64,000 bases of DNA from Saccharopolyspora rosea (GTDB lineage Bacteria; Actinomycetota; Actinomycetes; Mycobacteriales; Pseudonocardiaceae). Under the pieces are notes generated by a model. That model was not told the origin of the DNA. It saw only the letters and a program-made list of their open reading frames with translations, and did not search any database. The stretch covers positions 1,426,001-1,490,000 of the forward strand of contig NZ_CP102826.1 in assembly GCF_025643595.1 (NCBI RefSeq), read 5' to 3'. Made by a program: the position numbers and the translations under genes. Shown here in pieces: positions 3,111 to 56,268 of the stretch (within the stretch, counting starts at the first letter, position 1; the number at the start of each line of letters is the position of its first letter).

Positions 3111-3341
3111 AGCCTGTCTCTGAACTCGTTTTGGGTGGCGGTGCCGGTGGCGGAACCTCAGCAGCCGTCTCGACTGCGGAAGCCCCTCCTGATGTATGTC
3201 CGATACACGGCGGAGGGGCTGTCCTCGCGAGACGGCCGCTGAGAACCCGCGGCGGTGCCGGTTGCTTGCGTACTCACCGAAAGAGAAAGCGGCTGGCGCC
3301 GCTTGCCACACCCCTTCCGGGAGCAAGTTCAAAGACAGGCA
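3111..3341 (+). repeat. MITE-like repeat, copy A (231 bp, no 48-bp module)
   Basis: The left end AGCCTGTCTCTGAACT and the right end (reverse complement TGCCTGTCTTTGAACT) form ~16-bp terminal inverted repeats with two mismatches. CTGAG occurs directly before (3106-3110) and after (3342-3346), suggesting a 5-bp target duplication. Inside are a 9-bp-arm hairpin (AGCCCCTCC at 3181-3189, GGAGGGGCT at 3212-3220) and, near the right end, the hairpin AAGCGGC-TGGC-GCCGCTT. No ORF is conserved between copies. Two longer relatives lie at 49798 and 55932. The IS at 1528-3105 has inserted into the left CTGAG flank of this copy. Confidence 0.85.
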
Positions 3342-3511
3342 CTGAGCCCGCCTGGGCGAGCCGGGGGAGATGGTGCTGGTCCGGACGGTGCAACCGCCGT
3401 GAGTTTCCACTGTGGACAGTCCGGACGCCAACCCGCTCGGCGGTGTCCGCCCGTCGTGCTCGGCAGTAACCTGTCGCGGCCAGGGCGTGTTGTCGCGGAT
3501 GGGGGCCGCCG

Positions 3512-4372
3512 ATGTCCGACGAATTCGAGCTGCTCGTCAACAGACAGGCGCTGCACGGTTCGAGCCCGCTGTGGATGCCCGCCCTCAACTGCGTGTACTG
3601 GGTGGACCTGCTGCGGCGGGAACTGCACACCTACCACCGGGACTCCGGGGCCGACGAGGTCGACGTGCTGCCCGCGGCGGTGACCGCGCTCGGTGCGAGC
3701 CGGAACGGGCAGCTGATCGCCGCCACTGAACACGGCTTCGCTCGCGTGCACCTCGGACGTGCCGCGCTGGAACCGGTGGTGCAGGTGCACAACGGCGACC
3801 GGATGAGCGGCGGGACGTGCGATCCTGCCGGGCGGTTCGTCGCGGGTACCACCACCCACGTGGACGAACCGCAGGGCAGCGCGTTCTACGTGCTCGACGG
3901 CAACCGGGCTCGGCTGCTCGCGCGCGGCTTCACGGCGACCCGCGGCATCGCGTGGAGCCCGGACGGCGGCCGGATGTACGCGGTGGATGCCCGGGTGATC
4001 CGGGTCTACGACTACGACCCGGACCGGGCCAGGGCCGTGGCGGGCAGGCAGTGGGTGCTGGTCGGGGAGTCGGAAGGCAGTCCGGAGGGCATCGCGGTGG
4101 ACGCCGACGGCTGCGTGTGGGTCGCGATGCAGTGGACCGGTCGCATCCACCGCTACGCGCCCGGCGGTGAGCTGGAAACCGTGCTGTGGGCGCCGACGCG
4201 GCGGGTCACCAGCCTGGCGTTCGGCGGTGCGCGGTTGGAGGAGATGTACGTGACGTCGGCGTGCTTCGGCTACGACGAGCAGTCCATGCTCACCGACCCG
4301 TACGCCGGGGCGCTGCTGCGGTTCCGGCCCGGCGTGACCGGCACGACGCCGCCTCCGTGGCGCGGCATCTGA
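3512..4372 (+). CDS. SMP-30/gluconolactonase-like beta-propeller protein with altered metal site
   Basis: The 286-aa protein has the six-bladed SMP-30/LRE fold signatures: SPLWMPALNCVYWVDL (18-33), CDPAGRFVAGT (103-113), GIAWSPDGGRMYAVDA (145-160) and PEGIAVDADGCVWVA (191-205). The family residues that bind the divalent metal are replaced. The Glu of the EGPxW motif is Ser (HGSSPLW), the Asn of NGxxWS is Arg144, the Asp of PDG is Glu192, and the NDG triad is SGG (99-101). Lactonase activity is therefore doubtful, and a binding role or an altered metal is possible. ATG at 3512 follows a weak G-rich ribosome site; a TAACCT at 3467-3472 is a possible -10. It is convergent with glnA across a perfect terminator. 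Confidence 0.75.
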   Translation: MSDEFELLVNRQALHGSSPLWMPALNCVYWVDLLRRELHTYHRDSGADEVDVLPAAVTALGASRNGQLIAATEHGFARVHLGRAALEPVVQVHNGDRMSGGTCDPAGRFVAGTTTHVDEPQGSAFYVLDGNRARLLARGFTATRGIAWSPDGGRMYAVDARVIRVYDYDPDRARAVAGRQWVLVGESEGSPEGIAVDADGCVWVAMQWTGRIHRYAPGGELETVLWAPTRRVTSLAFGGARLEEMYVTSACFGYDEQSMLTDPYAGALLRFRPGVTGTTPPPWRGI

Positions 4373-4421
4373 TCGGCGAAGGGGCGGGTGGTCCACAGTG
4401 GACCACCCGCCCCTTCGCCGA
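4373..4421. terminator. Bidirectional terminator between SMP-30-like gene and glnA
   Basis: The arms at 4373-4396 and 4398-4421 are perfectly complementary over 24 bp around a single central base. The left arm begins right after the SMP-30-like stop codon, and the right arm ends 11 nt from the glnA stop. There is no T-tract, as is common for actinobacterial hairpin terminators. Confidence 0.85.
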
Positions 4422-4432
4422 CGGCAAGCCGA

Positions 4433-5857
4433 TCAGACGTCGAAGTACAGCGCGTACTCGTGCGGGTGCGGCCGCAGGCGGATCGGGTCGATCTCGTCCT
4501 CCCGCTTGAGCCGGATCCAGGTCTCGATCAGGTCCGGGGTGAACACGCCGCCTTCGAGCAGGAACTCGTGGTCGGTCTCCAGGTTGTCGATGACCTTGGC
4601 CAGGCTGTCCGGCACCTGCGGGACGTTCCTGGCCTCCTCGGGCGGCAGCTCGTAGAGGTCCTTGTCGATCGGCTCGGCCGGCTCGATCTTGTTCTTGATG
4701 CCGTCCATGCCGGCCATCAGCATCGCGGCGAACGCCAGGTACGGGTTGCCGGACGGGTCCGGGCAGCGGAACTCGACGCGCTTGGCCTTCGGGTTCGAGC
4801 CGGTGATCGGGATGCGCATGCAGGCCGAGCGGTTGCGCTGCGAGTACACCAGGTTCACCGGCGCCTCGAAGCCCGGCACCAGGCGGTGGTAGGAGTTCAC
4901 CGTCGGGTTGGTGAACGCCAGCAGGCTCGGCGCGTGGTGCAGGATGCCGCCGATGTAGTAGCGGGCGGTGTCCGACAGACCGGCGTAGCCGGACTCGTCG
5001 TAGAACAGCGGGGAGCCGTCCTTCCACAGCGACTGGTGGCAGTGCATGCCCGAGCCGTTGTCGCCGAACAGCGGCTTCGGCATGAAGGTGACCGTCTTGC
5101 CCTGCTGCCAGGCGGTGTTCTTGATGATGTACTTGAACAGCTGCAGGTCGTCGGCGGCGTGCAGCATGGTGTTGAACTTGTAGTTGATCTCCGCCTGGCC
5201 GCCGGTGCCGACCTCGTGGTGGGCGCGCTCGACGGTGAAACCGGACGCGATCAGCTGCTGGGTCATCTGGTCGCGCAGGTCGGCGAAGTGGTCGTACGGG
5301 CTGACCGGGAAGTAGCCGCCCTTCATGCGGGTCTTGTAGCCGCGGTTGCCGCCCTCCTCGTCGCGGCCGGTGTTCCACCAGCCCTCGACCGAGTCGACCT
5401 CGGCGAAGGTCTTGTTCGCGGCCTCGCCGAACTTCACCGAGTCGAAGATGTAGAACTCGGCCTCGGCGCCGAAGAACGCGGTGTCCGCGATGCCGGACTC
5501 GGCCAGGTACTGCTCGGCCTTGCGCGCGATGTTGCGCGGGTCGCGGCTGTAGGGCTCCAGGGTGAACGGGTCGTGCACGAAGAAGTTCAGGATCAGCGTC
5601 TTCTCCGCGCGGAACGGGTCCACCCGAGCGGTGTAGGGGTCGGGCAGCAGCAGCATGTCCGACTCGTGGATGGACTGGAAGCCGCGCACCGAGGAACCGT
5701 CGAACGCCAGGCCCTCGGTGAAGGTGTCCGCTTCGAACGCGGCGGCGGGTACCGTGAAGTGCTGCATGACGCCCGGCAGGTCGCAGAACCGGACATCGAC
5801 GAACTTCACGTCCTCGTCGGAGATGAAGCGCAGGACCTCGTCAGGATTCTTGAACAA
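4433..5857 (-). CDS. glnA: Glutamine synthetase type I (GlnA), adenylylation-type
   Basis: This is a 474-aa class I-beta glutamine synthetase that condenses glutamate, ammonia and ATP. Recognisable blocks are the N-terminal DGSSVRGF latch region, the metal-site segment [11 protein letters not shown], the [15 protein letters not shown]/Glu segment and [10 protein letters not shown], whose tyrosine is the site adenylylated by GlnE. The frame is open to an ATG at 5965, but that codon lies inside the GlnR-type operator. The better start is TTG at 5855-5857, preceded by AAGGAG (5867-5872 on the plus strand) at 9-nt spacing. It gives MFKNPDEVL, the usual family N-terminus and length. Nitrogen control by GlnR is strongly suggested by the operator. 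Confidence 0.97.
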
Positions 5858-5949
5858 CCTCGGTGGCTCCTTCACGCACTCGTACAGCTCACCGACGTCA
5901 CGCCGAAAACCACCGCCCGCCGGCTCGCGAACGACGGTATGACACCGGT

Positions 5950-5987
5950 GTTGCCCGGTCGTCACCCATGTGTTTCGCGGGTGTTAA
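5950..5987 (-). promoter_or_regulatory. GlnR-type operator upstream of glnA
   Basis: Reading the minus strand there are four 5-mers, TTAAC, GAAAC, GTGAC and GCAAC, each separated by exactly 6 nt (11-bp periodicity). This matches the two a-b site pairs of the actinobacterial GlnR box (gTnAC-n6-GaAAC repeated). It ends 92 bp upstream of the TTG start of glnA and lies between glnA and the divergent RDD gene. Confidence 0.88.
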
Positions 5988-6064
5988 CGCACGTCTGATC
6001 GGGTGGCCGGGCTTGCGCGGCGGCCGCCGGTGGTGCATGGGGACCGGGACGTACCCTGGGTGAC

Positions 6065-6535
6065 GTGCGTAAAGTCATCGGCTCGTGGCTGGACGGCCCG
6101 AGAGCAGCGTTGCACGACGCGCGGGAGAGGGCCGACGAGGACCGGCCGCGCTGGCGGGGCGAGCGCATGGGCCTGCCGCAGGACGGTCCCGGCTCGGCGG
6201 CGCCGCTGGGCAAGCGCTTCGCGGCCTTCCTGATCGACCTGGTCCTGGCGACGCTCATCACCGGTGCGTTCACCGTGCCGAAGCTCCCGGGCGACTGGAG
6301 CGTGCTCACCTGGTTCGTGATCACCGTGGTCCCGGTGAGCTTCTTCGGCGCGACCCCGGGCATGGCCGCGTTGCGCATCTGGGTGGCCCGGGTGGACGGC
6401 GCCGCGATGGTCGGTCCGCTGCGCGCGGCCCTGCGCTGCGTCCTGACGTTCCTGATCATCCCGGCCGTGGTGTGGAACTTCGACGGCCGGTCCTGGCACG
6501 ACCGGATGTCCGGCACGATCGTGCTGCGCCGCTGA
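6065..6535 (+). CDS. RDD-family membrane protein
   Basis: The protein has 156 aa, with a hydrophilic N-terminus of about 45 residues followed by the RDD-domain segment GKRFAAFLIDLVLATLI (conserved Arg and Asp). Two to three further hydrophobic spans follow, ending RSWHDRMSGTIVL with the last conserved Asp. Function is unknown; RDD proteins are small inner-membrane proteins, some implicated in transport. GTG at 6065 lies 7 nt after TACCCT (6052-6057), so it is probably leaderless. It is divergent from glnA and convergent with the DUF4191 gene, an arrangement I recall as conserved next to glnA in mycobacteria and streptomycetes. Confidence 0.85.
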   Translation: MRKVIGSWLDGPRAALHDARERADEDRPRWRGERMGLPQDGPGSAAPLGKRFAAFLIDLVLATLITGAFTVPKLPGDWSVLTWFVITVVPVSFFGATPGMAALRIWVARVDGAAMVGPLRAALRCVLTFLIIPAVVWNFDGRSWHDRMSGTIVLRR

Positions 6536-6541
6536 CACGAC

Positions 6542-6571
6542 GACGGGCCCGGGACGCGTCCCGGGCCCGTC
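6542..6571. terminator. Perfect 30-bp palindrome between RDD and DUF4191 genes
   Basis: Arms 6542-6556 and 6557-6571 are fully complementary and GC-rich. The palindrome sits 6 nt after the RDD stop codon and 14 nt from the DUF4191 stop, so it can serve both convergent genes. Confidence 0.8.
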
Positions 6572-6585
6572 CGACGTGCGGTCCC

Positions 6586-7323
6586 TCACTTGGCGCGGCG
6601 CGCCGCCCGCTGCACGTTGCGCATCTTGGCGCCCTGCGGCAGCGGCCCCTTCGGCATGGCGTTGCCCCCTCGGCTGGCCAGCGCGGCGAGCCGGTTCTCC
6701 AGCGAGTCGATCTGGTTCGGCCCGATGTTGCGAGGCAGCTTCATGATGTGCGTCTGCAGCTTCCGCAGCGGGATCTGCTTCTCGTCGTCGCCGTTGCCGA
6801 CGAAGATCTCGTAGATCGGGGTTTCGCCGACGACCCGGGCGACCCGCTTCTTCTCCTGCGCCATGAGCGACTTCACGCGGTGCGGTGCGCCTTCCCCGAC
6901 GAGCACGACGCCCGGACGGCCGATCACCCGGTGCACGGCGTCGAGCTGGCTGGTCCCGGCGACCGCCTGGCTGACCACCCACCGGCCCCGGAGGTTGTCC
7001 AGCGCCCAGCCGGCAGCACCCGGTTGCCCCTCCGCCTTGCTGAACACCGTCGCCTGCACGCGGCGGCCGAAGATGATGACGGCGGCGAGCACGCCCAGCG
7101 CCAGGCCCACGGGCAGGAACATCCACTGCAGGCCCCAGATCATGCCGAGCAGGAACACCACGACGGCCACGCCGACGAACGCCCCGAGCATCAGCGGCAG
7201 GAGGAGCTTGTCCTCCCGGCGCTGCATCTTGAACGCCTCGAAGATCTGCTTGACGCGGGCCAGCGCCGCCCCGCGCCGTTCCTTGGCCGCCGCTTTCTTG
7301 GCGGCCTTGTCCTGCTTGGCCAT
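6586..7323 (-). CDS. DUF4191 family membrane protein
   Basis: The protein has 245 aa. It starts with a Lys/Ala-rich basic segment (residues 1-20), then two adjacent transmembrane helices (about 41-61 and 67-87), then a soluble C-terminal domain ending in a basic tail. This matches the actinobacterial DUF4191 family, normally found beside lipA, as here (lipA ends ~100 bp upstream on the same strand). Molecular role is unknown. ATG at 7321-7323 is the only sensible start. Confidence 0.85.
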   Translation of the reverse strand: MAKQDKAAKKAAAKERRGAALARVKQIFEAFKMQRREDKLLLPLMLGAFVGVAVVVFLLGMIWGLQWMFLPVGLALGVLAAVIIFGRRVQATVFSKAEGQPGAAGWALDNLRGRWVVSQAVAGTSQLDAVHRVIGRPGVVLVGEGAPHRVKSLMAQEKKRVARVVGETPIYEIFVGNGDDEKQIPLRKLQTHIMKLPRNIGPNQIDSLENRLAALASRGGNAMPKGPLPQGAKMRNVQRAARRAK

Positions 7324-7423
7324 GGTTTTCAGGATACGGCTGTGCTCGGCACGGGTGCAGGCGCGGTCCGCAGCCCGTGACCGAGATGTGAGGACGGCCG
7401 CTCGCGCCCCGCCTCCGGCGGGC

Positions 7424-8425
7424 TCAGCGGGTCAGGAGGCTGGAGGCTTCCTGGGCGGCGGAACCCGCCTCGGCCAGGTGCTTCAGGTTCTCCGGCAGGG
7501 GCATGCCGCGGTGGACCGTGGCCTTGGCGAACAGCCGTCCCGCGCGGTAGCTGGAGCGCACCAGCGGTCCGGCCATGACGCCGGGGAAACCGATCTCCTC
7601 GGCGGCCTTGGTGTGCTCGACGAACTCCTCCGGCTTGACCCACCGGTGCACCGGCAGGTGGCGCGGGCTGGGCCGCAGGTACTGCGTGATGGTGATGATG
7701 TCGCAGCCCGCGTCGTGGAGTTCCTGCAGCGCGGGGCGGACCTCCTCGGGCTCCTCGCCCATGCCCAGGATGAGGTTCGACTTGGTCACCAGCCCGTCCT
7801 CGCGGGCCCGGGTGAGCACCTCCAGCGACCGCTCGTAGCGGAACGCCGGGCGGATCCGCTTGAACAACCGCGGAACGGTCTCGACGTTGTGCGCCAGCAC
7901 CTCCGGACGGGAGCCGAACACCTCGGCGAGCTGGTCCGGGTCGGCGTTGAAGTCGGGGATGAGCAGCTCCACCCCGGTGCCCGGGTTGAGCGCGTGGATC
8001 TGCCGGACCGTCTCGGCGTACAGCCAGGCGCCGCCGTCGTCCAGGTCGTCCCGGGCGACACCGGTGACCGTGGAGTAGCGCAGGCCCATCGCCTGCACCG
8101 ACTCGGCCACGCGGCGCGGCTCCTCGACGTCGAGCTCGGCGGGCTTGCCGGTGTCGATCTGGCAGAAGTCGCAGCGCCGGGTGCACTGGTCACCGCCGAT
8201 GAGGAAGGTGGCCTCCCGGTCCTCCCAGCATTCGAAGATGTTGGGGCAGCCCGCCTCCTCGCAGACGGTGTGCAGGCCCTCGCGGCGGACCAGGCCCTTG
8301 AGCTCCTTGTACTCCGGGCCCATCCGCGCGCGGGTCTTGATCCACGACGGCTTCTTCTCGATCGGCGTCTGGCTGTTGCGGACTTCCAGCCGCAACAGCT
8401 TCCGCCCCTCCGGCGCGACACTCAC
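7424..8425 (-). CDS. lipA: Lipoyl synthase (radical SAM)
   Basis: LipA (333 aa) inserts two sulfurs into protein-bound octanoyl groups. The auxiliary cluster motif [12 protein letters not shown] (C-x4-C-x5-C) and the radical-SAM motif CTRRCDFC (C-x3-C-x2-C) are both intact. GTG at 8425 lies 7 nt from TAGCCT (8433-8438, minus strand), so the gene is probably leaderless and has its own promoter. The usual partner lipB is not adjacent but 4.3 kb away on the same strand, separated by five unrelated genes. The likely substrate in this window is the E2 subunit encoded at 14463-16214. Confidence 0.97.
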
Positions 8426-8474
8426 GCTCCACAGGCTACGCCCCGCGGCAAGCCGTCCAGCGGCGCGATCCGCC

Positions 8475-9410
8475 TCACTCCGGGTCCGGTTGCACGCCGG
8501 TCAGCTCGGCGGTCGCGGCCCAGAGCCGACGCGCGGTCCGCTCGTCGAGCGCGGCGCGGCGCATCCGGGCGCGGGCCGGGTGGCCGCGGCTCTCGCCGAG
8601 CCCGCTGGGTCCGAAGTAGTCGCCCCCGCGCACGTTCGGGGCGGTCGCGGCGTAGAGCTGCGGCAGGGCGCCCTGCGACGCCGGTTGCAGGACCAGCCGC
8701 GAAGCGAGGCCCAGCAGGGAGTGCACCGCGGCGGGCACGCGCCGGAGGCGGGCGGAGTTGGTGGTCAGCTCCGTGTCGCTCATGCCGGGATGGGCGGCGG
8801 CGCTGACCAGGTCCAGGCCGGCGCGTCGGGCGGCGCGGTGCAGTTCCTGGCTGAACAGCAGGTTCGCCAGCTTCGACTGGGCGTAGGCGCGCACCGGGTC
8901 GTACCGGCGGGCGGTGAAGTTCAGGTCGTCGACGTCCAGGCCGCCGCCGCGGTGGGCGAGGCTGGAGACGGTGACGACGCGGGCACCCGGCCGGTTGCGC
9001 AACGCGGGCATGAGCAACCAGGTCAGCGCGGCGTGCCCGAGGTGGTTGGTGCCCAGCTGCAGCTCGAAGCCGTCCCGGGTGCGGCGCCGCGGGGTCGCCA
9101 TGACGCCCGCGTTGTTCATCAGGACGTCGAGCGCGTCACCGGTGCGGTCGCGGACCTCGGCGGCGGCCCGGTGCACCGAGGCGAGATCGGCGAGGTCCAG
9201 TTCGACGAGTTCGGGAGACGTCGCGGCGGAGGCGGCGACCTCGCGGAGCGCCGAGCGGCCCCGCTCGGCGTCCCGGCAGGCGAGCAGCACCCGGGCGCCG
9301 CGCTGGGCGAGGGCCGTGGCGCTGTGCAGTCCGAGCCCGGAGTTCGCGCCGGTGATCAGCACGGTTCGTCCGGTCTGGTCGGGGATGTCGGCTGTGGTCC
9401 ACCTGGCCAT
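8475..9410 (-). CDS. Short-chain dehydrogenase/reductase (retinol dehydrogenase-like)
   Basis: The 311-aa Rossmann-fold oxidoreductase has the cofactor motif TGANSGLG (about 20-27), the NNAG motif (about 98-101) and the catalytic YAQSK (Y-x3-K). Its length and the C-terminal extension fit the WW-domain-oxidoreductase/retinol-dehydrogenase-like SDRs found widely in actinobacteria. The substrate is unknown. The ATG at 9410 is 6 nt after TAGGTT (9417-9422, minus strand), giving a leaderless promoter that lies inside the 60-bp gap to the divergent membrane gene. It is part of the accessory insert between lipA and lipB. Confidence 0.88.
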
Positions 9411-9470
9411 GGCGGAAACCTACTCGGAGTAGGCCCAGCGGGGAAGGGCGCGCGGGCATACTGCTGCGCC

Positions 9471-10316
9471 GTGTCGACGAGATCGTGGATCGTTCGCCTC
9501 CGCTGGGCGCCGTGGTGCCGCCGGGTGCGCCTCGCCGTGGCCACGCGCAGGTTTCCCCGACTGGTCGAAGGACCGCTGTCGGTCGCGATGCGCCTGCTGT
9601 GGCTGCCGCTGTTCGCCGCGGTGCTGCTGGGCTGTTGGGCGGAGCTGCTGGTCGTGCTGGTCCTGCTGCCGCTCGTGCTGATCGCCCGGGCGTCGGGGCT
9701 CGGTTCGTGGTGGGTGGACGTGCGCGCGCACGGCCGGCGGGTCGGCGCGGTCCGCGTCCACGGGTACCGGGCCGCGCGGCGGTTGCGGCGCGGTCTGCGC
9801 GAGCACCTGAGCACCCGCGAGTCGATCGATGGCGCGGAACGGCTGCTGCACGCCGAGCAGGCCGAGTTCCGCCCGGTGCGGATCGACGAAGCGCGGTGGT
9901 GGGCCACGATGCGCTCGTACTACCCCTACGGGCGGCGGCGGTGGTTCCCGTGGCAGCGCCGGTTGTCGTTCCTGGCCGCGTTGGACCGGATCCCGGACGG
10001 GCTCGGCGACGATCCGGTCTCGTTCCTCATCGCGATCCCGTTCCTGCTGCTGTTCGCGCTCCTGTGCACCGGAGCGGCGGTCGAGCTCGCCGTGCTGGTC
10101 GTGCTGTTGCCGGCGGTCGTCCTGCTCCGGCTCGGCCGCGCGCTGCCGTGGCCGGTCGAGCGCGTCGTGGCCGGTGGCGCGGAGGTGCGCTCCGAGGTGC
10201 GCGGGCTGCTCGCGTCGGTGCGGGCGAGACGCGCGCTGGACGCCGAACTCGCGCGCACCCCACCACCGCCGAACCTGGTCGGCCGAGTCCGCGCGGAGCC
10301 CGCGCGGACTCGATGA
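9471..10316 (+). CDS. Predicted membrane protein of unknown function
   Basis: From GTG at 9471 this encodes 281 aa. A basic N-terminus is followed by a hydrophobic stretch (about 40-72), a charged middle part with RSYYPYGRRRWFPWQRR and a second hydrophobic stretch (about 182-220), then a hydrophilic tail. That predicts two hairpins or four transmembrane helices. TACTGC at 9459-9464 ends 6 nt before the GTG, so a leaderless start is plausible. An ATG further in (about 9588) is an alternative. No family was recognised. It is divergent from the SDR gene. Confidence 0.6.
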   Translation: MSTRSWIVRLRWAPWCRRVRLAVATRRFPRLVEGPLSVAMRLLWLPLFAAVLLGCWAELLVVLVLLPLVLIARASGLGSWWVDVRAHGRRVGAVRVHGYRAARRLRRGLREHLSTRESIDGAERLLHAEQAEFRPVRIDEARWWATMRSYYPYGRRRWFPWQRRLSFLAALDRIPDGLGDDPVSFLIAIPFLLLFALLCTGAAVELAVLVVLLPAVVLLRLGRALPWPVERVVAGGAEVRSEVRGLLASVRARRALDAELARTPPPPNLVGRVRAEPARTR

Positions 10317-10373
10317 CCGCACGGATTCGGGCCCCTGGCCGGTGGCGGTGGGGTGCGGGCGCCCGCGAGCGGA

Positions 10374-10871: not shown

Positions 10872-10913
10872 GGCGTCGTCTCCGGGCAGAACGGTCGTAC
10901 CCTGGGTGTGCGG

Positions 10914-10966
10914 CATACCGGGAGTATGTCCACGACCGACGGTACCACGAGTCCGTACCGGCGGTA
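10914..10966. promoter_or_regulatory. Candidate TetR operators in the divergent promoter region
   Basis: Two short inverted repeats lie between the divergent genes. CATAC-5 nt-GTATG spans 10914-10928, and TACCG-G-CGGTA spans 10956-10966; the latter overlaps the region just upstream of the TAGGGT -10 (10972-10977) of the TetR gene. Half-sites CATACCG (10914) and CGGTATG (10962) also pair with each other across the region. Autoregulation is inferred from position only. Confidence 0.5.
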
Positions 10967-10984
10967 TGTCATAGGGTTGTGAAC

Positions 10985-11602: not shown

Positions 11603-11652
11603 CGAACCGGCGGCACGACGCCGGATTCCGGGCCCGACTAGCCTCGGGGGCC

Positions 11653-12597: not shown

Positions 12598-12627
12598 GGT
12601 CCGCCGGGGCCCGGCGTCCACAACGGA

Positions 12628-12670: not shown

Positions 12671-12690
12671 CAGCTGACCACCCGGACCCG

Positions 12691-14452: not shown

Positions 14453-14462
14453 GTGCTGCGCG

Positions 14463-47202: not shown

Positions 47203-47226
47203 TACCGGGACTTCGCGGCGATCAGT

Positions 47227-47332: not shown

Positions 47333-47351
47333 CTGGAGAGAAGAAGGAGCA

Positions 47352-48410: not shown

Positions 48411-48509
48411 GTCCACAGGCGACTTCGCGCACGCCAGGGGGCCGGGTGACCGGCCCCTGGCGTGCGTGTGCGGCGGCACGAGGCCACGGCCCGGCTTACG
48501 ATCCGGGCC

Positions 48510-49790
48510 GTGCCTGATTCGGGCGGCCGGCCGACCGCCGCGGTCACCGCGGCGGTGATGGTGGCCGCGGGCGCGGCGGTCTGGTGGTGGCGGCCCGCGC
48601 CGGAGCCGGACGCGACGCGCCCGGCGGGGGTCGCCGAGCCCCGCGGGCAGGCGGTCGCCCATCTGCTGGAGCGGCGCGAGAACGCGGTGCGGCGCGGCGA
48701 CGAGCGGGCGTTCCTGGCCACCGTGGACCCGGCCGCGCCGCCCGATTTCCGGGATCGCCAGCGCCACCTGTTCCGCGATCTCACCGATGTCCCGTTCGCC
48801 GAGTTCGACTACCGCGTGGACTCCTCGGAGGCGGGCACCGCGCCGGATGTTCCCGGAGCCGAGGAGTCGTGGGTCCCGCGCGTCGCGCTGCGCTACGCGC
48901 TGACCGGGGTGGACATCGTGCCGACGCTGCGCCCGCTCGGCTACGTGTTCGCCCGCCGGGGTGGTGCGTGGTACCTGGCCGCCGACGAAGCGCCCGGACG
49001 GCGCACCTGGCGCGGCCCGTGGGACTTCGACGACCTCGTCGTCCGGCGCACCGCCCAGGGCATGGTCCTCGGCCATCCCGGCACCGCCGCGCTCGCCGAC
49101 CGGGTGGCCCGGCAGATCGACGGGACGGTCGAGCAGGTGTCCGAGGTGTGGGGGCAGGGCTGGTCGCGCCGCGTCGCGGTGGTGCTCCCGGAATCGCGCG
49201 CTGAGCTGGAATCGCTGGTGGGCCAGGAGTTCTCGGGTGACGGCATCGCGGCCGTCGCGGTCGCCGACCGCGTGGACACCTCGGCCCGGCGCGTCGAGGG
49301 ACCCCGCGTGGTGCTCAACCCGCGCACCGCCGCGCGGCTGTCCGACAACGCCCTGCACGTCGTGCTGCAGCACGAGATCACCCACATCGCGACCCGGGCG
49401 GACACCGCCGAGGGCGCTCCGATGTGGATGGTCGAGGGGTTCGCCGACTACGTCGGCTACCGCGACAGCGGTCTGAGACCCCGCGACATCGCGCCCGAAC
49501 TGGTCAGATCGGTGCGCGCGCACGGCCCGCCGCGCGCGCTGCCCGCCGACGCCGACTTCCGCGCCACCGGACGCACCCTCGACCTCGCCTACCAGCGCTC
49601 CTGGTCGCTGGTGCGGCACCTGGTCCAACGGCTGGGCGAGCCCCGAGCGGCCCTGCTGTACCGGCGGATCGCCGCGTCCCCCGATCCGTCCGCTGTGGAC
49701 GCCGCGCTGCACGAGATCGCCGGGATGAGCACCGAACAACTCGTCCGCGACTGGGCCGCCGAGCTGCCACGCACCCTCGGGTCCGGTTAG
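48510..49790 (+). CDS. Membrane-anchored zinc peptidase-like protein (HExxH)
   Basis: The 426-aa protein has an N-terminal membrane segment (about 9-27), an SnoaL/NTF2-like accessory region and a gluzincin-type domain. The zinc motif HEITH (VVLQHEITHIATR) is followed about 20 residues later by MVEGFADYVGY, which supplies the third ligand glutamate. It fits the peptidase MA-like group. Substrate unknown; extracytoplasmic location inferred from the anchor. GTG at 48510 is 7 nt after TACGAT (48497-48502), so it is probably leaderless. A repeat element begins 7 nt after the stop. Confidence 0.82.
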   Translation: MPDSGGRPTAAVTAAVMVAAGAAVWWWRPAPEPDATRPAGVAEPRGQAVAHLLERRENAVRRGDERAFLATVDPAAPPDFRDRQRHLFRDLTDVPFAEFDYRVDSSEAGTAPDVPGAEESWVPRVALRYALTGVDIVPTLRPLGYVFARRGGAWYLAADEAPGRRTWRGPWDFDDLVVRRTAQGMVLGHPGTAALADRVARQIDGTVEQVSEVWGQGWSRRVAVVLPESRAELESLVGQEFSGDGIAAVAVADRVDTSARRVEGPRVVLNPRTAARLSDNALHVVLQHEITHIATRADTAEGAPMWMVEGFADYVGYRDSGLRPRDIAPELVRSVRAHGPPRALPADADFRATGRTLDLAYQRSWSLVRHLVQRLGEPRAALLYRRIAASPDPSAVDAALHEIAGMSTEQLVRDWAAELPRTLGSG

Positions 49791-49797
49791 CCCTCAG

Positions 49798-50079
49798 TGC
49801 CTGTCTTTGAACCTGCTCCCGGAACCCGCGTGGCAAGCGGCGACAGCCGCTTTCTCTTTCGGTGAGTGGTCTCGCCGCTGGCACCGCCGCGGGTTCTCAG
49901 CGGTCGTCTCGCGAGGACAGCCCCTCCGCCGTGTATTGGGCATACATCAGGAGGGGCTCCCGGAGCCGGTGTGGCTGTGGCGCGTCAGCGCCTCGTTGGG
50001 GGGTGGTGGTCGGGTGACGGGCGGGCCGCTGAGGTTCCGCTCCCGGCACCGCCACGCACAACGAGTTCAAAGACAGGAA
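49798..50079 (-). repeat. MITE-like repeat, copy B (282 bp, one 48-bp module)
   Basis: It is inverted relative to copies A and C. The ends are TGCCTGTCTTTGAACC and, reading inward from the right, TTCCTGTCTTTGAACTCG. It is flanked by CTCAG on both sides (49793-49797 and 50080-50084), a 5-bp direct repeat. The right flank holds the fadD stop codon (TGA on the minus strand, 50081-50083). It contains the common hairpin (49919-49927 with 49950-49958) and one copy of the GC-rich module (49979-50026). It lies between two convergent genes and may act as their terminator. Confidence 0.87.
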
Positions 50080-50080
50080 C

Positions 50081-51889
50081 TCAGGAGTAGATGGCCTCGA
50101 TCTCGGTCGCGTGGTTCTCGGCGACCCTGCCGCGCCGGAGCTTCATGCTGGGGGTCAGTTCCCCGGTCGCCTCGGTGAAATCCGCCGGCAGGATGCGGAA
50201 CTGCTTGATGCGCTCGGCCCGCGACACCGCCCGGTTCGCCTCGTCCACGGCCTCCTGCACGGCCGCGCGCAGTTCCGGGTCGTCGACCAGGTCGGTGACC
50301 GGGGTGTCGCGCGGGCGGCCGCGGTCGGCCAGCCAGGACGGCAGGAACTCCGGGTCCAGCGTGATCAGGGCGCCGACGAACGGCTTCTTGTCGCCGACCA
50401 CCATGCACTGGCTGATCAGCGGGTGCGCCCGCAGGGCGTCCTCCAGCACGGCCGGGGCGACGTTCTTGCCGCCCGCCGTGACGATGATCTCCTTCTTGCG
50501 GCCGGTGATCCGCAGGAACCCGTCCTCGTCGAGGGAACCGAGGTCGCCGGTGTGGAACCAGCCGTCTGAGAAGGACTCCGCGGTCGCCTCCGGGTTGTTC
50601 CAGTACTCCCGGAACACCACGTCGCCGCGGACCAGCACCTCGCCGTCGTCGGCGATGCGCACCGACGTCCCGGCGACCGGGCGGCCCACCGTGCCGATGC
50701 GGCTGGCGCGTTCGACGTTGACCGCGGCCGCCGCGGTCGTCTCCGTCAGCCCGTAGCCCTCCAGCACGGGCACCCCGACGCCCCGGAAGAAGTGCGCGAG
50801 CCGCTCGCCGAGCGGAGCCCCGCCGGACACGGCGGCCGCGCAGCGTCCGCCCAGGGCGGCGCGCAGCCTGCCGTACACCAGCTTGTCGAACAGCAGGTGC
50901 CTCAGCCGCAGCGGCAGCGAGGGGCCACCGGTGTCCCGGGCCCGGCTGTGGGCGATGGCGGTCTCCTCGGCGGCGTCGAAGATCCGGCCCTTGCCGGTGG
51001 CGTGCGCCCGCTGCTTGGCGGTGTTGTAGACCTTCTCGAACACGCGCGGCACGGCGAGCACGAACGTCGGACGGAACGACCGCAGGTCGGCGACCAGGTT
51101 CCGCACGTCGCCGGTGTGCCCCAGGGTGATCCGCGCGTACACGCAGGAGATCGCGATGGCGCGGGCCAGCACGTGCGCCATCGGCAGGAACATCAGCATC
51201 GAGTTGCCCGGCCGCATCAGCTGCGGGAAGGCGTCGACGTCGGCGCGGACCTCGGCGAGCAGGTTGCGGTGGGTGAGCACGCAGCCCTTGGGGCGGCCGG
51301 TGGTCCCGGACGTGTAGATCAGCGTCGCCATGTCGTCGGCGCGCACCGCGCGGCGGCGCCGGTGCACCTCGCGGTCGTCGACGTCGGTGCCCAGCGCGGT
51401 CAGCTCGTCCACCGCGCCCGCGGCGCCGTCGCTGGTCGGCCCGTCGATCTGCCAGACGTGGCTGACCTCGGCGAGCCGGCCGACGACCTCGTCGACCTCG
51501 GCGCGCTGCTGCTCGGTCTCCACGATGACCGCCCGCGCCCCGGAGTCGCCGAGGATCCACTCCACCTGGTCGGCCGAGGACGTCTCGTACACCGGGACCG
51601 TGACGCACCCGGCGGCCCAGATCGCGAAGTCCAGCAGGCTCCACTCGTAGCGGGTCCGCGACATCAGCCCGATCCGGTCGCCGGGTCGCAGACCGGCCGC
51701 GACGAACCCGCGCGCCACCGCCAGCACCTGGGCGGCGAAGTCCGCCGCGGTCACGTCCACCCAGGTGCCCTCGACGCGGCGGCGGAAGCTGACGGTGCTG
51801 CCGAACCGCTCGGCGTTGGCCCACACCACGTCGGTGAGGTTCTCGTCCTCGGACACCGGGGTGGTGGGGGGTGCGCTGAACTCTCGCAC
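50081..51889 (-). CDS. fadD15: Long-chain fatty-acid-CoA ligase (AMP-forming), FadD15-like
   Basis: The 602-aa ANL-superfamily enzyme has the P-loop-like YTSGTTGRPKG, the GYGLTETTAAAAVN motif, the GWFHTGDLGSLDEDGFLRITGRKKE hinge region and the C-terminal lysine near MKLRRGRV. Length and place match mycobacterial FadD15 (600 aa). GTG at 51889 has GGAGG with 7-nt spacing; the frame continues to 51922 without a better start. Its TGA stop is part of the CTCAG flank of repeat copy B. Confidence 0.94.
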   Translation of the reverse strand: MREFSAPPTTPVSEDENLTDVVWANAERFGSTVSFRRRVEGTWVDVTAADFAAQVLAVARGFVAAGLRPGDRIGLMSRTRYEWSLLDFAIWAAGCVTVPVYETSSADQVEWILGDSGARAVIVETEQQRAEVDEVVGRLAEVSHVWQIDGPTSDGAAGAVDELTALGTDVDDREVHRRRRAVRADDMATLIYTSGTTGRPKGCVLTHRNLLAEVRADVDAFPQLMRPGNSMLMFLPMAHVLARAIAISCVYARITLGHTGDVRNLVADLRSFRPTFVLAVPRVFEKVYNTAKQRAHATGKGRIFDAAEETAIAHSRARDTGGPSLPLRLRHLLFDKLVYGRLRAALGGRCAAAVSGGAPLGERLAHFFRGVGVPVLEGYGLTETTAAAAVNVERASRIGTVGRPVAGTSVRIADDGEVLVRGDVVFREYWNNPEATAESFSDGWFHTGDLGSLDEDGFLRITGRKKEIIVTAGGKNVAPAVLEDALRAHPLISQCMVVGDKKPFVGALITLDPEFLPSWLADRGRPRDTPVTDLVDDPELRAAVQEAVDEANRAVSRAERIKQFRILPADFTEATGELTPSMKLRRGRVAENHATEIEAIYS

Positions 51890-52064
51890 GGGCAAACCTC
51901 CGAAAATGCGCTGGCGCAGCACAACCTAACGCCGACCGCCGCGGCGGCGCGATCGCCCGTGCCTTCCCGCGCCGTGGGAGGACCGGGCGGCACCGCGTGA
52001 CCACCGGTCGCTGAACGCAGTAGTTTCGACGTGCGCCCGGATCGTCGTCGGAATGGAGCTGCAC

Positions 52065-52853
52065 TTGCGCGTCCACGTCGTCTCGGACGTCCACGGCAAC
52101 GCCGAGGACCTCAAGCGCGCCGGGGAAGGTGCCGACGCGCTCGTGGTGCTCGGCGACCTGATCGACTTCGTCGACTACCACGACCACGCGCGCGGCATCC
52201 TCGGACGCGTCTTCGGTCCGGAGAAGGTCGCCCGGTTCGCCGAACTGCGCCGCACCCGGCGGGGCCCCGAGTTCGGCGCCTACGCGCGCTCGCTGTGGGA
52301 GAGCCTGTCCAACCCGGCCAAGGTCGTCGAGGAGGCCGTGCGCGAGCAGTACGCCGAGCTGTTCGGCGCGATGACCGCGCCCACCTACGCCACGCCCGGC
52401 AACGTCGACGCCCCGCACCTGTGGCCGGAGTTCGCCGGTTCGGGAGTGCACATCCTCGACGGCGACAGCGCGGACATCGGCGGGCTGCGGTTCGGGTTCA
52501 TCGGCGGCACCTTGATCCCGCCGGGCGCGACGCTGCGGCGGCACGCCGCCTGGGTGCCCTACCTGCGCCCGGAGGACGAGTACGACCAGGTCCTCGCCTC
52601 GCTGCCGCCGGTGGACGTGCTGTGCAGCCACCTGCCGCCGGCGGTCCCGGAGCTGACCTACGACGTGGTGGCGCGGCGTCCGGAGCACGGCTCGGCCGCG
52701 CTGCTGGAGCGCATCCGCACCGACCGCCCCCGGTGGTCGTTGTTCGGGCACGTGCACCAGCCGCTCGCGCAGCGGGTGCGCGTCGGGCGCACCGAGTGCG
52801 TCAACGTGGGGCATTTCCAGCGGACCGGTCGGCCGTACGTCATCGAATGGTGA
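52065..52853 (+). CDS. Metallophosphoesterase
   Basis: The 262-aa calcineurin-like phosphoesterase has D-x-H in VHVVSDVHGNAED, GDLIDFVDYHDH, an unusual GNVDAPH (GNxD type) and the C-terminal SHLPP and FGHVHQP histidine motifs. TTG at 52065 is favoured as start because GGAG lies 6 nt upstream and the protein then begins MRVHVVSD; ATG 52053 would add four residues. Substrate unknown. It is divergent from fadD15 across 175 bp. Confidence 0.87.
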   Translation: MRVHVVSDVHGNAEDLKRAGEGADALVVLGDLIDFVDYHDHARGILGRVFGPEKVARFAELRRTRRGPEFGAYARSLWESLSNPAKVVEEAVREQYAELFGAMTAPTYATPGNVDAPHLWPEFAGSGVHILDGDSADIGGLRFGFIGGTLIPPGATLRRHAAWVPYLRPEDEYDQVLASLPPVDVLCSHLPPAVPELTYDVVARRPEHGSAALLERIRTDRPRWSLFGHVHQPLAQRVRVGRTECVNVGHFQRTGRPYVIEW

Positions 52854-52917
52854 ACGTCGCGACGTCTCGGCGGCTCCTGCGCCCGCCGGTCGCGCACCCA
52901 CCCGGTAACCTGCGCCC

Positions 52918-53361
52918 ATGGTCGATCAGTCCACCCAGTCCATCGTGATCGAGGCGCCGGCCGCGGAGATCATGGCCGTCATCGCTGATTTCGCCGCGTA
53001 TCCGGAGTGGGCGGAGGCGGTCAAGGAGACCGAGGTGCTGGCGTGGGGCCCGGACGGCAAGGCCGAGCAGGTCCGCTTCATCCTGGACGCGGGTGTGGTC
53101 AGGGACACCTACGTCAACGCCTACGACTGGGCCGACGACGGGCTGTCGGTGAGCTGGACGCTGACCGAGGGGCAGGTGCAGAAGGCGCAGCGCGGCAGCT
53201 ACCGGCTCGACCCGCTGTCCGCGGAGCGCACCGAGGTCACCTACAGCCTGGCGGTCGACCTGGCGATCCCGATGATCGGCCTGTTCAAGCGCAAGGCCGA
53301 GAAGATGATCATGGACACGGCGCTGAAGGAGCTCAAGCGCCGGGTCGAGGGCGCCCGCTGA
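52918..53361 (+). CDS. SRPBCC (polyketide cyclase/START-like) family protein
   Basis: The 147-aa helix-grip lipid/ligand-binding fold starts STQSIVIEAPAAEIMAVIADFAAYPEWAEAVKETEVL. The C-terminal amphipathic helix contains FKRKAEKMIMDTALKELKRRVEG. The orthologue in mycobacteria is Rv2185c. The ligand is unknown. ATG at 52918 is exactly 6 nt after TAACCT (52906-52911), so it is probably leaderless. The ArsA-like gene follows after 20 bp and is likely cotranscribed. Confidence 0.9.
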   Translation: MVDQSTQSIVIEAPAAEIMAVIADFAAYPEWAEAVKETEVLAWGPDGKAEQVRFILDAGVVRDTYVNAYDWADDGLSVSWTLTEGQVQKAQRGSYRLDPLSAERTEVTYSLAVDLAIPMIGLFKRKAEKMIMDTALKELKRRVEGAR

Positions 53362-53381
53362 CCGACCAGAGAGCGAGGCCG

Positions 53382-54596
53382 TTGCGAATCCTGCTGTTCA
53401 CCGGCAAGGGCGGGGTCGGCAAGACGACCCTCGCCGCCGCCACCGCGGCCCGCGTGGCCGGCCGCGGCGGCAAGGTGCTGGTCGTGTCCACCGACCCGGC
53501 GCACTCCCTGGCCGACGCGCTGGGCACCGCGCTCGGGCCGCGACCGCGCGAGGTCCGGCTGCCTGGAGCGGCCGCGCTGCACGCCGCCGAGATCCAGACC
53601 CGCGACCTCGTCGACGGGGTGTGGTCCGAGCTGCGCGAACACCTGCGGACCGTGCTGCACGGCGCCGGGGTGGGCGAGGTCGACGCCGAGGAGCTCACCG
53701 TGCTCCCCGGGGTGGAGGACCTGCTCGCGCTGAGCGAGGTGCACCGGCTGGCCACCGGGGGCGTGTGGGACACCGTGATCGTCGACTGCGGCCCCACCGC
53801 GGAGACGCTGCGCCTGCTCGCGCTGCCCGAGTCGCTGGCCGGGTACCTGGAGCGGCTGTTCCCGACGCACCGCCGCGCGGTGCGCGGACTGCTGGCAGGT
53901 CTCGCGGGCAGCGACAACGTGCAGCGCTGGGACGCGGCGGCCGACGCGCTCGGCCGGCTCGCGGAACGCCTGTCCTCGCTCGGCGACCTGCTCACCGCGC
54001 CCGGTACCGGCGTGCGGCTGGTGCTCACCCCGGAGGCCGTGGTCACCGCCGAGACCCGGCGCACGCTGACCGCGCTCGCGTTGCAGCAGATCCGGGTGGA
54101 GGGCCTGGTCGCCAACCGGCTCGTCCCGCACCCCGGTTCGGCGCGCGGCACGGCCGCCGGCTGGCTGCGCACCCGGCGCCGGGAGCAGGAGCGGGTGCTG
54201 GCGGAGCTGCGCGACTCGACCGACCTGCCGGTGCGCACCGTCGAGCACCGCGCGGCCGAACCGGTCGGTGCGGAGGCGCTGCTGGAGCTCGGCGACGAGC
54301 TCTACGCCGACGACGACCCGCTCACCGCACCGGCACCGGCACCGGTGATGGAGGTCGGTGGCGGCGGGAAGGAACTGGACGCCGAGTACTCGCTGCGGAT
54401 CGCGCTGCCGCTGCACCGCGACGCCGAACTGGAGCTGGCGCGCGTCGGCGACGAGCTGGCGATCACCGTCGACGGTCGGCGCCGCCTGGTCGCGCTGCCC
54501 GCGGTGCTGCGCCGCTGCGTCGTGGTGTCCGCGGTGGCCGGTGACGATGGGCTGACCGTCGGGTTCCGGCCCGACCCGGACGTCTGGATGCGGTGA
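53382..54596 (+). CDS. ArsA/Get3-like P-loop ATPase
   Basis: The 404-aa protein has the deviant Walker A FTGKGGVGKTTLAA at residues 6-19, VSTDPAHSLADAL (switch I) and VDCGPTAETLRLLALPE, which corresponds to the DTAPTGHTLRLL signature of Get3/ArsA. A C-terminal extension (about 320-404) folds as beta strands and resembles the alpha-crystallin-like addition of some bacterial ArsA homologues. No arsenite-binding cysteine triad or arsB neighbour is present, so arsenic transport is unlikely. The start TTG at 53382 is chosen from the conserved MRILLFTGKGG N-terminus; the ribosome site is weak. Confidence 0.88.
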   Translation: MRILLFTGKGGVGKTTLAAATAARVAGRGGKVLVVSTDPAHSLADALGTALGPRPREVRLPGAAALHAAEIQTRDLVDGVWSELREHLRTVLHGAGVGEVDAEELTVLPGVEDLLALSEVHRLATGGVWDTVIVDCGPTAETLRLLALPESLAGYLERLFPTHRRAVRGLLAGLAGSDNVQRWDAAADALGRLAERLSSLGDLLTAPGTGVRLVLTPEAVVTAETRRTLTALALQQIRVEGLVANRLVPHPGSARGTAAGWLRTRRREQERVLAELRDSTDLPVRTVEHRAAEPVGAEALLELGDELYADDDPLTAPAPAPVMEVGGGGKELDAEYSLRIALPLHRDAELELARVGDELAITVDGRRRLVALPAVLRRCVVVSAVAGDDGLTVGFRPDPDVWMR

Positions 54597-54597
54597 A

Positions 54598-54984
54598 GTG
54601 GTGGACCACATGGGACGAGAGGCGAACCACGAGCAACTCGTGGAGGAGCTGCGCGGACTGCTGGACGCGATCGCCGAACGCGCCGAGGACTACCTGCGCG
54701 GCTGCCGCCCGGACGGCGCGGACGGCTGCGGCTGGTGCCCGGTGTGCGCGGCCGTGGCGCTGGTGCGCGGGCAACGCCCCGAGGTGGCCGCGCGGTTGAC
54801 CGAGCACGTCGCCGGTCTCCTGCAGGCGTTGCGGCAGGTCCTCGCCGAGCAGGCGGCGGAACCGGCCGCGGAGGAAGAGCCCGACGAGGAGCAGGAGAAG
54901 GGGAAGGTGCAGCGGATCAGCGTGCGCCGGGTGGGCGGGAGCGTGCTGCGCGAACCGGGGAACGGAGCCGATGCGCGGTGCTGA
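54598..54984 (+). CDS. Conserved hypothetical protein with CxxC pair
   Basis: The 128-aa protein has an N-terminal helical part (HEQLVEELRGLLDAIAERAEDYLRG), a CGWCPVC motif (residues 44-50, two close cysteine pairs that could bind zinc), and an acidic then basic C-terminus. It is conserved downstream of the ArsA-like gene in actinobacteria (Rv2183c in mycobacteria as I recall). Start choices are GTG 54598, GTG 54601 or ATG 54610. The 3' end overlaps the glucokinase start by 7 bp. Confidence 0.75.
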   Translation: MVDHMGREANHEQLVEELRGLLDAIAERAEDYLRGCRPDGADGCGWCPVCAAVALVRGQRPEVAARLTEHVAGLLQALRQVLAEQAAEPAAEEEPDEEQEKGKVQRISVRRVGGSVLREPGNGADARC

Positions 54985-55931
54985 CGATCGGTGTTGACGT
55001 CGGCGGGACGAGCGTGCGCGCCAGCGTCGTGGACCCGCAGGGCGAGATCCTGGAAACGCTGCGGCGCCCCACCCCTGCCACCGGCCCGGAGCTCAACGCG
55101 GCGATCGCGGGCACGGTGCGCGAGCTGGCCGATCGCCACCCGGTGGCCGGAGTCGGGCTCGCCGTCGCCGGTTTCGTCAGCGAGGACCGGCGGGTGGTGC
55201 GCTTCGCGCCGCACCTGGCGTGGCGGCACGTCGCGGTCGCCGACGAACTGGCCGAGCGGTTGGGCCTGCCGGTGGTGCTGGAGCACGACGCGAACGCCGC
55301 GGGCATCGCCGAGCAGCGGTTCGGAGCCGCGATGGGTGCCGGCGTCGCGGCGCTGGTCGCCATCGGCACCGGGATCGGCGGCGCGCTGGTGATCCGCGGC
55401 GAGGTGTTCCGCGGCGCCTACGGCGTCGCACCCGAGCTCGGGCACCTGCGGCTGGTGCCGGACGGCAGGCCCTGCTCGTGCGGCAAGCGCGGCTGCTGGG
55501 AGCGCTACTGCAGCGGCACCGCGCTGGCGAGCACCGCCGCCGAGTTCCTCGCCACCGACCCGGACGCGGGCACGCTGCTCGCGGCGACCGATCCGGCGGC
55601 GCTGACCGGTGTCGACGTGGCCCGCGCGGCCGAGGCCGGGGATCCGGTCGCCCGCCGCGCGGTCGACGAGCTGGCCCGGTGGTTGGGGGAGGGGCTGGCG
55701 CTGGTCGCCGACGTCTACGACCCCGAGGTCGTGGTCATCGCCGGTGGCGTGTCCGACTCGGCGCACCTGTTCCTGGACGCCGCCCGCGAGCACTACGCCG
55801 CCTCGGTCACCGGTGCCGGGCACCGGCCGCTGGCCGCGGTCCGGGTGGCCCGCTGCGGCGACATGGCGGCGATCGTCGGAGCCGCCACCCTGGCCCGCGA
55901 ACACGTCGCGGCAACCCCGAACCCGGCCTAG
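54978..55931 (+). CDS. glk: ROK-family glucokinase
   Basis: The 317-aa sugar kinase has an ATP-binding DVGGTSVRASVVD at the N-terminus, catalytic Asp in LEHDANAAGIAEQ, GTGIGGALVIRGEVFRG and the ROK zinc signature CSCGKRGCWERYCSG. It corresponds to the Streptomyces glkA neighbourhood. GTG at 54978 has GGAG 10 nt upstream, within the overlapping preceding gene. The TAG stop (55929-55931) is the last part of the flank of repeat copy C. Confidence 0.92.
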   Translation: MLTIGVDVGGTSVRASVVDPQGEILETLRRPTPATGPELNAAIAGTVRELADRHPVAGVGLAVAGFVSEDRRVVRFAPHLAWRHVAVADELAERLGLPVVLEHDANAAGIAEQRFGAAMGAGVAALVAIGTGIGGALVIRGEVFRGAYGVAPELGHLRLVPDGRPCSCGKRGCWERYCSGTALASTAAEFLATDPDAGTLLAATDPAALTGVDVARAAEAGDPVARRAVDELARWLGEGLALVADVYDPEVVVIAGGVSDSAHLFLDAAREHYAASVTGAGHRPLAAVRVARCGDMAAIVGAATLAREHVAATPNPA

Positions 55932-56268
55932 AGCCTGTCTTTGAACTCGTTTTGGGTGGCGGTGCCGGTGGCGGAACCTCAGCGGCCCGCCCGTCACCCG
56001 ACCACCACCCCCCCAACGAGGCGCTGACGCGCCACAGCCACACCGGCTCCGGAAGCCCCTCCTGATGTATGTCCGATACACGGCGGAGGGGCTGTCCTCG
56101 CGAGACGCCCGCCCGTCGCCCGACCACCGCCCCCCACGGAGGCGCTGACGCGCCGCTGTGCTTGTCGGAGAACCCGCGGCGGTGCACGTGGCGAGACCAC
56201 TCACCGAAAGAGAAAGCGGCTCACGCCGCTTGCCACGCGGGTTCCGGGAGCAGGTTCGAAGACAGGCA
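55932..56268 (+). repeat. MITE-like repeat, copy C (337 bp, two 48-bp modules)
   Basis: The longest copy has ends AGCCTGTCTTTGAACTCG and, reading inward from the right, TGCCTGTCTTCGAACC. The flanks are CCTAG (55927-55931) and CTTAG (56269-56273), matching in 4 of 5 bases. Two copies of the GC-rich module (55985-56033 and 56107-56154) bracket the common hairpin (56054-56062 with 56085-56093). The 3' third, including ACCGAAAGAGAAAGCGGC, is shared with copies A and B. It begins immediately after the glucokinase stop codon. Confidence 0.87.

Follow-up and report, generated by a model that had tools for sequence, protein, structure and literature searches.

A covarying structured core within probable IS5-type miniature elements of Saccharopolyspora rosea

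The 64,000-nucleotide stretch of the Saccharopolyspora rosea genome analysed here (the window; contig NZ_CP102826.1, positions 1,426,001–1,490,000) contains three copies of a short repeat bounded by terminal inverted repeats (TIRs). These repeats are, in the genome of the window, very probably IS5-type miniature inverted-repeat transposable elements (MITEs), with an insertion sequence (IS) of the IS5 family as their likely partner. Within the repeat lies a core of ~137 nt, built as an imperfect hairpin whose internal loops are conserved. It is a structured module in its own right, without a match in Rfam and wider in occurrence than the MITE, and comparison of related sequences shows that it is kept as a fold. 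The MITE ends themselves fit known IS5-type elements; it is the core inside the repeat that is new. Two points go beyond an earlier note on this DNA, which had been made from its letters alone: the core extends past the range of the MITE ends, and it has a covarying fold on the strand complementary to that of the upstream gene.

Fold, strand and genomic setting of the core

Cores are present in all 89 relatives' loci taken from BLAST, and the 72 less similar ones were aligned. On the sense strand, that of the upstream gene, two-sided changes occur in 31 of the 41 predicted pairs of this alignment. For the complement, 38 chosen sequences have two-sided changes in 24 of 36 pairs and 95.4% of cells paired; the 36-pair structure was derived from the same sequences and is somewhat favoured in this test. 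None of 500 shuffles reaches any of five measures for this fold, and slid partners pair in 39–49%. The earlier note had proposed a search for covarying stems and had offered a repeat bearing a structured RNA as an alternative to a MITE. Heavy covariation across species, beyond both the shuffled and the slid controls, answers the first point and supports the structured core of the second, the RNA itself being predicted. Covariation of the kind expected of a new structured RNA family is therefore present. Single-strand folds in the window also exceed shuffles (copy 1, z −8.5; copy 3, z −4.9). Rfam gave no match in the window at the gathering cut-off, and in the loci of six relatives, with E up to 1, it gave two weak matches below the cut-off, both outside cores.

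The strand on which the fold is maintained is indicated by the mispairs of the 15-bp main stem, which were counted on the sense strand, where a C.A mispair corresponds to a G.U wobble on the other strand. In 65 of the 72 sequences, 72 mispairs are C.A or A.C, 7 are G.T or T.G and 19 are of other kinds. A replicate set of 71 out of 75 further cores (four with irregular stems were skipped) gave 95 C.A, 6 G.U and 12 others; the sequences are related, and neither set of counts represents independent events. Many of the C.A mispairs come from the nearly fixed pair 7. Without this pair, the pooled counts are 92 C.A versus 16 G.U, and among 136 stems 69 have more C.A, 5 have more G.U and 62 are tied. 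Two helix choices, P2 and the apical stem's first two columns, are not part of this evidence. A mutational strand bias was considered as the source of the C.A excess and is unsupported, conserved unpaired columns having 1.1% G>A and 1.7% C>T changes. Consensus folding (alifold) likewise favours the complement (−59.4 versus −49.2). The stem mispairs, being C.A and not G.U, show that the fold, as read from aligned sequences, is maintained on the complement of the upstream gene's sense strand.

Most cores are located at the 3' ends of genes, many of them at the stop codon or shortly past it, and few fall between divergent genes. Genes were called with a simple codon-usage gene finder of our own. 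In a first set of relatives' cores, 90 of 93 core matches were classed, and 71 of the 90 start at the 3' end of a same-strand gene, at a median of 21 nt from the stop (14–33 nt in 52 of the 71). The surrounding gene pairs are tandem with the core in sense (38) versus antisense (13) orientation, convergent (33) or divergent (6), and no core lies inside a gene. A second set comprised 75 cores, obtained from 95 matches in 80 loci after 2 partial, 2 duplicate and 16 edge matches had been dropped. Here 65 of the 75 cores are at the 3' end of a same-strand gene, with a median distance of 24 nt (14–33 nt in 45 of the 65), and the gene pairs are tandem (38 sense versus 7 antisense), convergent (27) or divergent (3). 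Among gaps of at least 150 nt in the same 80 loci, 57 of 153 without a core are divergent, as against 3 of 83 with one. In the genome of the window, the sense strand runs with the presumed direction of replication in 84 of 121 core matches; the origin was placed from skew only, and the first 60 kb yielded no dnaA-like motif.

In the genomes searched, the core is practically confined to one family. BLAST with copy 1 gave matches in 38 of 150 genomes including its own, in 20 of the 21 other genomes of the genus and in 15 of 79 genera, and outside the family it gave two weak matches (E about 2.5e-4). A covariance model found the core in 33 of 397 genomes of the order including its own (all of one family, 11 of 85 genera) and in 2 of 394 genomes of the class, its own and one of the same family; in both scans the filters were strict and 8 candidates were scored in each genome. 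The matches listed in a pattern scan include Saccharopolyspora (many species, S. spinosa among them), Amycolatopsis and Halopolyspora, and NCBI taxonomy places Saccharopolyspora in the Pseudonocardiaceae. With regard to a viral or phage origin, viral contigs scanned with one exact pattern gave no match.

Across genera, the core reaches further than the MITE ends do. Inverted ends with a score of 8 were found in 26 of 89 real pairs of flanks from relatives and in 30 of 174 mismatched pairs; at a score of 9 the figures are 14 of 89 versus 14 of 174, and at 12 they are 3 versus 0. A TNA duplication is seen at 1 of the 89 loci. The profile and covariance-model searches recommended in the earlier note have thus produced many further copies in the genome and the core in other genera, with TIRs there little above chance. 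A reading of the flanks by eye, in which the same core sits on many different TIRs in relatives, was withdrawn outside the window's genome when the mismatched-pair test did not support it. Left ends do occur at fixed positions in subfamilies (for example GGTTTTTCCA at −17 or −18 in 20 of 177 elements), and subfamilies therefore have boundaries.

The core is also retained at low copy number. One genus, g33, has 1–4 core matches per genome in all seven species, and in five of its species a core lies directly 3' of a gatB-like gene; it is absent there in two genomes (G053 and G312). Among these five cores, 8 of the 15 stem pairs differ on both sides (manual count). C.A is the sole mispair in three of the stems, a fourth pairs perfectly and the fifth (L396) is decaying. 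Given the low copy number of these genomes, conversion between copies is unlikely to have produced the paired changes; correction between the arms of a single palindrome could have done so. Elsewhere, a core lies 3' of a benB-like gene in three species, in two of which a benC-like gene follows, and two species have one between a pair of acyl-CoA dehydrogenase-like genes (gene names by reading). The gatB site was considered as the ancestral locus of the whole family and rejected: of 14 genomes, only that of locus L406, already known to carry a core at this site, has one there, the other 13 being 2 of the same genus and 11 from eight other genera.

Mobility in the genome of the window

The high copy number predicted in the earlier note is borne out by end-pattern, BLAST, profile and covariance-model searches. 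A 14-base end pattern with one free base has 106 matches in the whole genome, versus none for the reversed control, and BLAST found 65 places from 40 of 463 candidates scored. The covariance model of the core has at least 121 matches in the 6.56-Mb genome (a single contig of 6562638 bases), a lower bound from scoring 150 of 11641 candidates. The profile search, covering three 400-kb pieces (1.2 Mb of the 6.56 Mb), gave 73 matches that merge into 49 unevenly spread loci. Core matches are sparse in the first 1 Mb of the genome (7 of 121), the remainder containing 6–15 per 0.5 Mb except in the partial last bin.

The 3-bp flanks are identical in 13 of 25 two-ended candidates, which take in overlapping pairings and decayed copies; each identical pair reads TGA or TCA, i.e. 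TNA. We take this TNA target to be that of the IS1031-like group of the IS5 family. Elements are also nested, one inserted into another at CTCAG with the site repeated on either side. A candidate partner is an IS of ~962 bp with a 277-residue transposase (PF13340, PF01609; NF033580, IS5 family). Its first bases, GTGCCTGTCTTTGA, are those of the repeat, the terminal core GWGCCTGTCTTTGA is common to both, and by eye its ends are nearly identical to the MITE right ends. Nine copies in the genome are full-length, and for one more the match falls into two pieces; the twelfth match is weak and does not represent this IS. Each of the ten two-ended copies is bordered by TNA on either side, and nine of the ten sit at CTCAG inside a repeat, the target of the tenth also reading ACCTCAGCG. 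In 1.2 Mb, CTNAG occurs 1030 times, CCTCAGCG 76 times and the GGAACCTCAGCGG of the repeat 25 times; judging from these counts, an extended target motif may account for much of the preference of the IS for the repeat. Eight of the nine full-length transposase copies (one of the nine at 1803885–1804715 of the contig) are identical in protein, which suggests a recent burst.

The features of IS5-family MITEs are thus present here, namely TIRs shared with the IS, a TNA target duplication as in the IS and insertion polymorphism. The MITE architecture proposed in the earlier note is supported by the TIRs, the TNA duplications, the nesting, core-less sites in relatives and an IS5-family element with near-identical ends. 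In two other genera, relatives of the IS lie at CTCAG or CTGAG at the stem base of the core in 4 of 30 loci by flank reading (L223, L232, L241 and L224), and profile matches to the core were found in 5 of the 30 (these four and L251). Four IS5-family copies in another genome (L225, L234, L243 and L252; G013) have unusually long inverted repeats of 44–68 aligned bases, which continue into flanks that are palindromic about CTATAG; a larger palindrome may be the target of the IS at these places.

Two orthologous sites were compared across 22 genomes of the genus. A core lies within 700 nt behind the gene abutted by copy 2 in three of them (its own, G003 and G012), and behind the gene abutted by copy 3 in two (its own and, in opposite orientation, G010). 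The copy-2 orthologue in G018 is unreadable to its true end and hence not assessable, and is counted among the 19 genomes without a core. Of the empty sites that the earlier note had suggested looking for, this comparison shows most genomes to be without a core at both places; it records presence or absence of the core, not base-exact empty sites. A single segmental duplication including flanking genes is excluded as the origin of the three copies, because the neighbouring genes differ and most relatives have no core at these two sites. Some hairpins behind the acyl-CoA ligase-like gene at the copy-2 site (L443–L463) resemble separate repeat families (GTGAAGGGCACCTT...; AATTTCG...GAAATT).

Candidate roles of the core and known systems

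The explanation that we place first, with confidence a little short of even, is that IS5-moved MITEs carry a module whose complementary-strand fold insulates gene 3' ends. The non-autonomous elements were most likely moved by the IS5-family transposase, which would recognise the GWGCCTGTCTTTGA ends and cut at TNA within CTNAG. They carry the ~137-nt imperfect hairpin as a module wider in spread than the ends, and this module would make insertions at gene ends tolerated or useful. Convergent or antisense transcripts arriving from the downstream side of the gene would include this G.U-tolerant fold, at which they would be stopped, processed or bound, with less effect on sense read-through into the next gene. 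The insulating role of the core, taken by itself, is a tentative proposal drawn from position and pairing. Rather more doubtful, though possible, is that the core represents a new structured RNA family lying antisense behind genes in one actinobacterial family, with up to hundreds of copies per genome, a passenger of at least one transposon system and elsewhere low-copy and vertically inherited.

Several observations weigh against complementary-strand insulation by an IS5-borne module. Individual sequences have a slight folding advantage on the sense strand (mean −72.1 versus −68.9, the complement being lower in 22 of 72), and some sense-strand G.U pairs occur at inner pairs of the apical stem. 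The 49 loci in the window's own genome comprise 30 convergent, 7 sense and 8 antisense tandem and 4 divergent arrangements; the sense bias is therefore not seen there, and sense orientation as a general rule was rejected. No conserved promoter or terminator was identified on reading the sequences, beyond which no search for them was made. Finally, the IS5 route has been shown for the window's genome alone, since inverted ends in relatives barely exceed chance.

The position and orientation of the core just past stop codons would also suit a mobile sense-strand terminator or mRNA 3'-end stabiliser, a 3' untranslated region replacing the ordinary terminator hairpin in the manner of SPRITE or repetitive extragenic palindromic (REP) elements. 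The sense strand does fold well, and a perfect hairpin with an arm of at least 10 lies within 90 nt of the stop in 14 of 18 assessable core-less copy-2 orthologues and in none of the 3 with a core; in these three, only part of the core's own stem falls within the 90 nt. We nevertheless consider this unlikely: the stem mispairs are C.A, which disrupts the sense fold, and not G.U, inspection of sequences by eye showed no T-run after the 3' hairpin, and low-copy cores lie between co-directional, operonic-looking genes (the benB/benC-like and the acyl-CoA dehydrogenase-like pairs, in two species each). Complementary-strand insulation is compatible with such mispairs through G.U wobble on the other strand.

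Two further readings were weighed. The repeat could be a selfish element without host function, its core needed in cis only for binding of transposase or host factors. Palindromes can correct one arm from the other, and matched arm changes would then reflect strand-switch correction of an imperfect palindrome; the signs of mobility (nesting, site polymorphism and TNA flanks) and the very small number of sense-strand G.U intermediates agree with this. It is made fairly improbable by asymmetric internal loops that are conserved rather than homogenised, by the strand-specific mispair bias, and by the retention of the gatB core in five species without ends recognisable by eye. In attC and REP-associated tyrosine transposase (RAYT/REP) systems, a DNA hairpin on one strand is recognised by a recombinase, and the maintained fold could be a single-stranded DNA hairpin of this type. 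Strand-specific, wobble-tolerant pairing fits folded DNA too, and dispersal in relatives lacks clear TIRs, but the TIRs and TNA duplications of the window's genome are of the DDE-element type, and we regard this reading as very unlikely.

The repeat resembles IS5-family MITEs in its small size, its TIRs and TNA duplications and the presence in the same genome of an IS5 transposase gene with near-identical ends. It is unlike them in that its core occurs in other genera without these ends and with a covarying, strand-specific fold; the accessible part of a MITE review describes stable stem-loops and mentions no such core (PMC10969869). According to the portion available of a study of pneumococcal repeats, 61–63% of BOX, RUP and SPRITE elements are on the leading strand, SPRITE is enriched near gene 3' ends and was suggested to be a co-opted terminator, BOX is modular, these small repeats have extensive folds, and BOX and SPRITE are nearly restricted to S. 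pneumoniae and S. mitis (PMC3049150). On that partial account the present repeat shares with them small size, extensive folding, modularity (BOX), proximity to gene 3' ends (SPRITE) and a leading-strand excess, whereas its GC-rich core occurs in many genera, has no T-run by eye and has its fold tracked on the opposite strand. REP elements are described, in the sections seen, as high-copy extragenic palindromes and specific IS insertion sites, IS5 being among five families named (PMC1525189), with a size given in a second, likewise partial, source as 20–40 bp (PMC3733652). As far as these excerpts go, the likeness lies in a high-copy extragenic palindrome that serves as a specific IS target, and the difference in a core of ~137 nt and a terminal sequence common to IS and repeat. 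A literature search, most subscription papers being outside its scope, listed neither a paper about this repeat nor one about a Saccharopolyspora MITE.

The usual view of small bacterial repeats is that they are decayed transposon ends; here a passenger module occurs well outside the range of its ends, keeps its fold by compensatory change even when low-copy, and is located at the ends of genes across many genera. Should the complementary-strand fold be a functional RNA, it would offer hundreds of natural replicates per genome for studying how gene 3' ends are guarded from wrong-side transcription, as well as an example of an IS homing to such modules as safe sites.

Anatomy of the element and its copies in the window

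The plain element is ~233 bp long with ends G(A/T)GCCTGTCTTTGAAC. It consists, in order, of a left end with a GGCGGTGCCGGTGGCGGAACC box, CTCAG, the long hairpin, CTGAG, GAACCCGCGGCGGTGC, a short AAGCGGC/GCCGCTT hairpin and the right end. A module of ~65 bp, in one or two copies, sits within the stem arms of the longer forms. Re-reading of the window confirmed the three copies at the places and in the orientations that the earlier note had assigned to them, together with both the central and the AAGCGGC/GCCGCTT hairpins. Its size classes are likewise real: 231 bp is the plain form, 282 bp has one ~65-bp module in addition and 337 bp has two related ones. Copies 1 and 2 are each flanked by TGA/TGA; the flanking 3-mers of copy 3, CTA/TTA, are not identical.

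Table 1. The three repeat copies, their parts and host genes, in window coordinates (seven-digit positions are those of the contig; limits of copies include the terminal G/C bases; R1, covariance model of the core; names of host genes by reading)
Feature	Position	Strand	Remarks
Copy 1, plain MITE form	3110..3342	+	TGA flanks at 3107-3109 and 3343-3345
Structured core of copy 1	3130..3267	-	R1, complete match, 1429130-1429267, 147.2 bits; modelled strand is the complement
Copy 2, one extra ~65-bp module	49797..50080	-	TGA on both sides
Upstream TGA of copy 2	50081-50083	-	Stop codon of the acyl-CoA ligase-like gene
Structured core of copy 2	49872..49999	+	R1 match, 1475872-1475999, 70.7 bits
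Copy 3, two extra modules	55931..56269	+	Begins on the final G of the ROK-like gene's TAG stop (55929-55931)
CTCAG within GGAACCTCAGCGG of copy 3	55978..55982	+	Elsewhere in the genome, insertion site of the IS5-family element and of other repeat copies
First extra module of copy 3	55983..56050	+	Limits approximate
Inner part of copy 3 core	56043..56104	-	R1 model positions 37-98, 1482043-1482104
Second extra module of copy 3	56108..56168	+	Resembles the first module, same orientation; limits approximate
Acyl-CoA ligase-like host gene	50081..51922	-	3' end abutted by copy 2; in 22/22 genus genomes
ROK sugar kinase-like host gene	54978..55931	+	3' end abutted by copy 3; in 22/22 genus genomes

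The shorter forms look like deletions between direct repeats, and the ~65-bp module may be a second, independently moving module. By eye, the benB-side loci L399 and L404 of another genus have a recognisable relative of this module inserted apically in the core. Five copies of 78–95 bp (S3 54515, 137815, 205398, 248786 and 267891) break off at about one position of the apical loop, and in at least one of them an inverted left end then follows, a possible palindromic subfamily.

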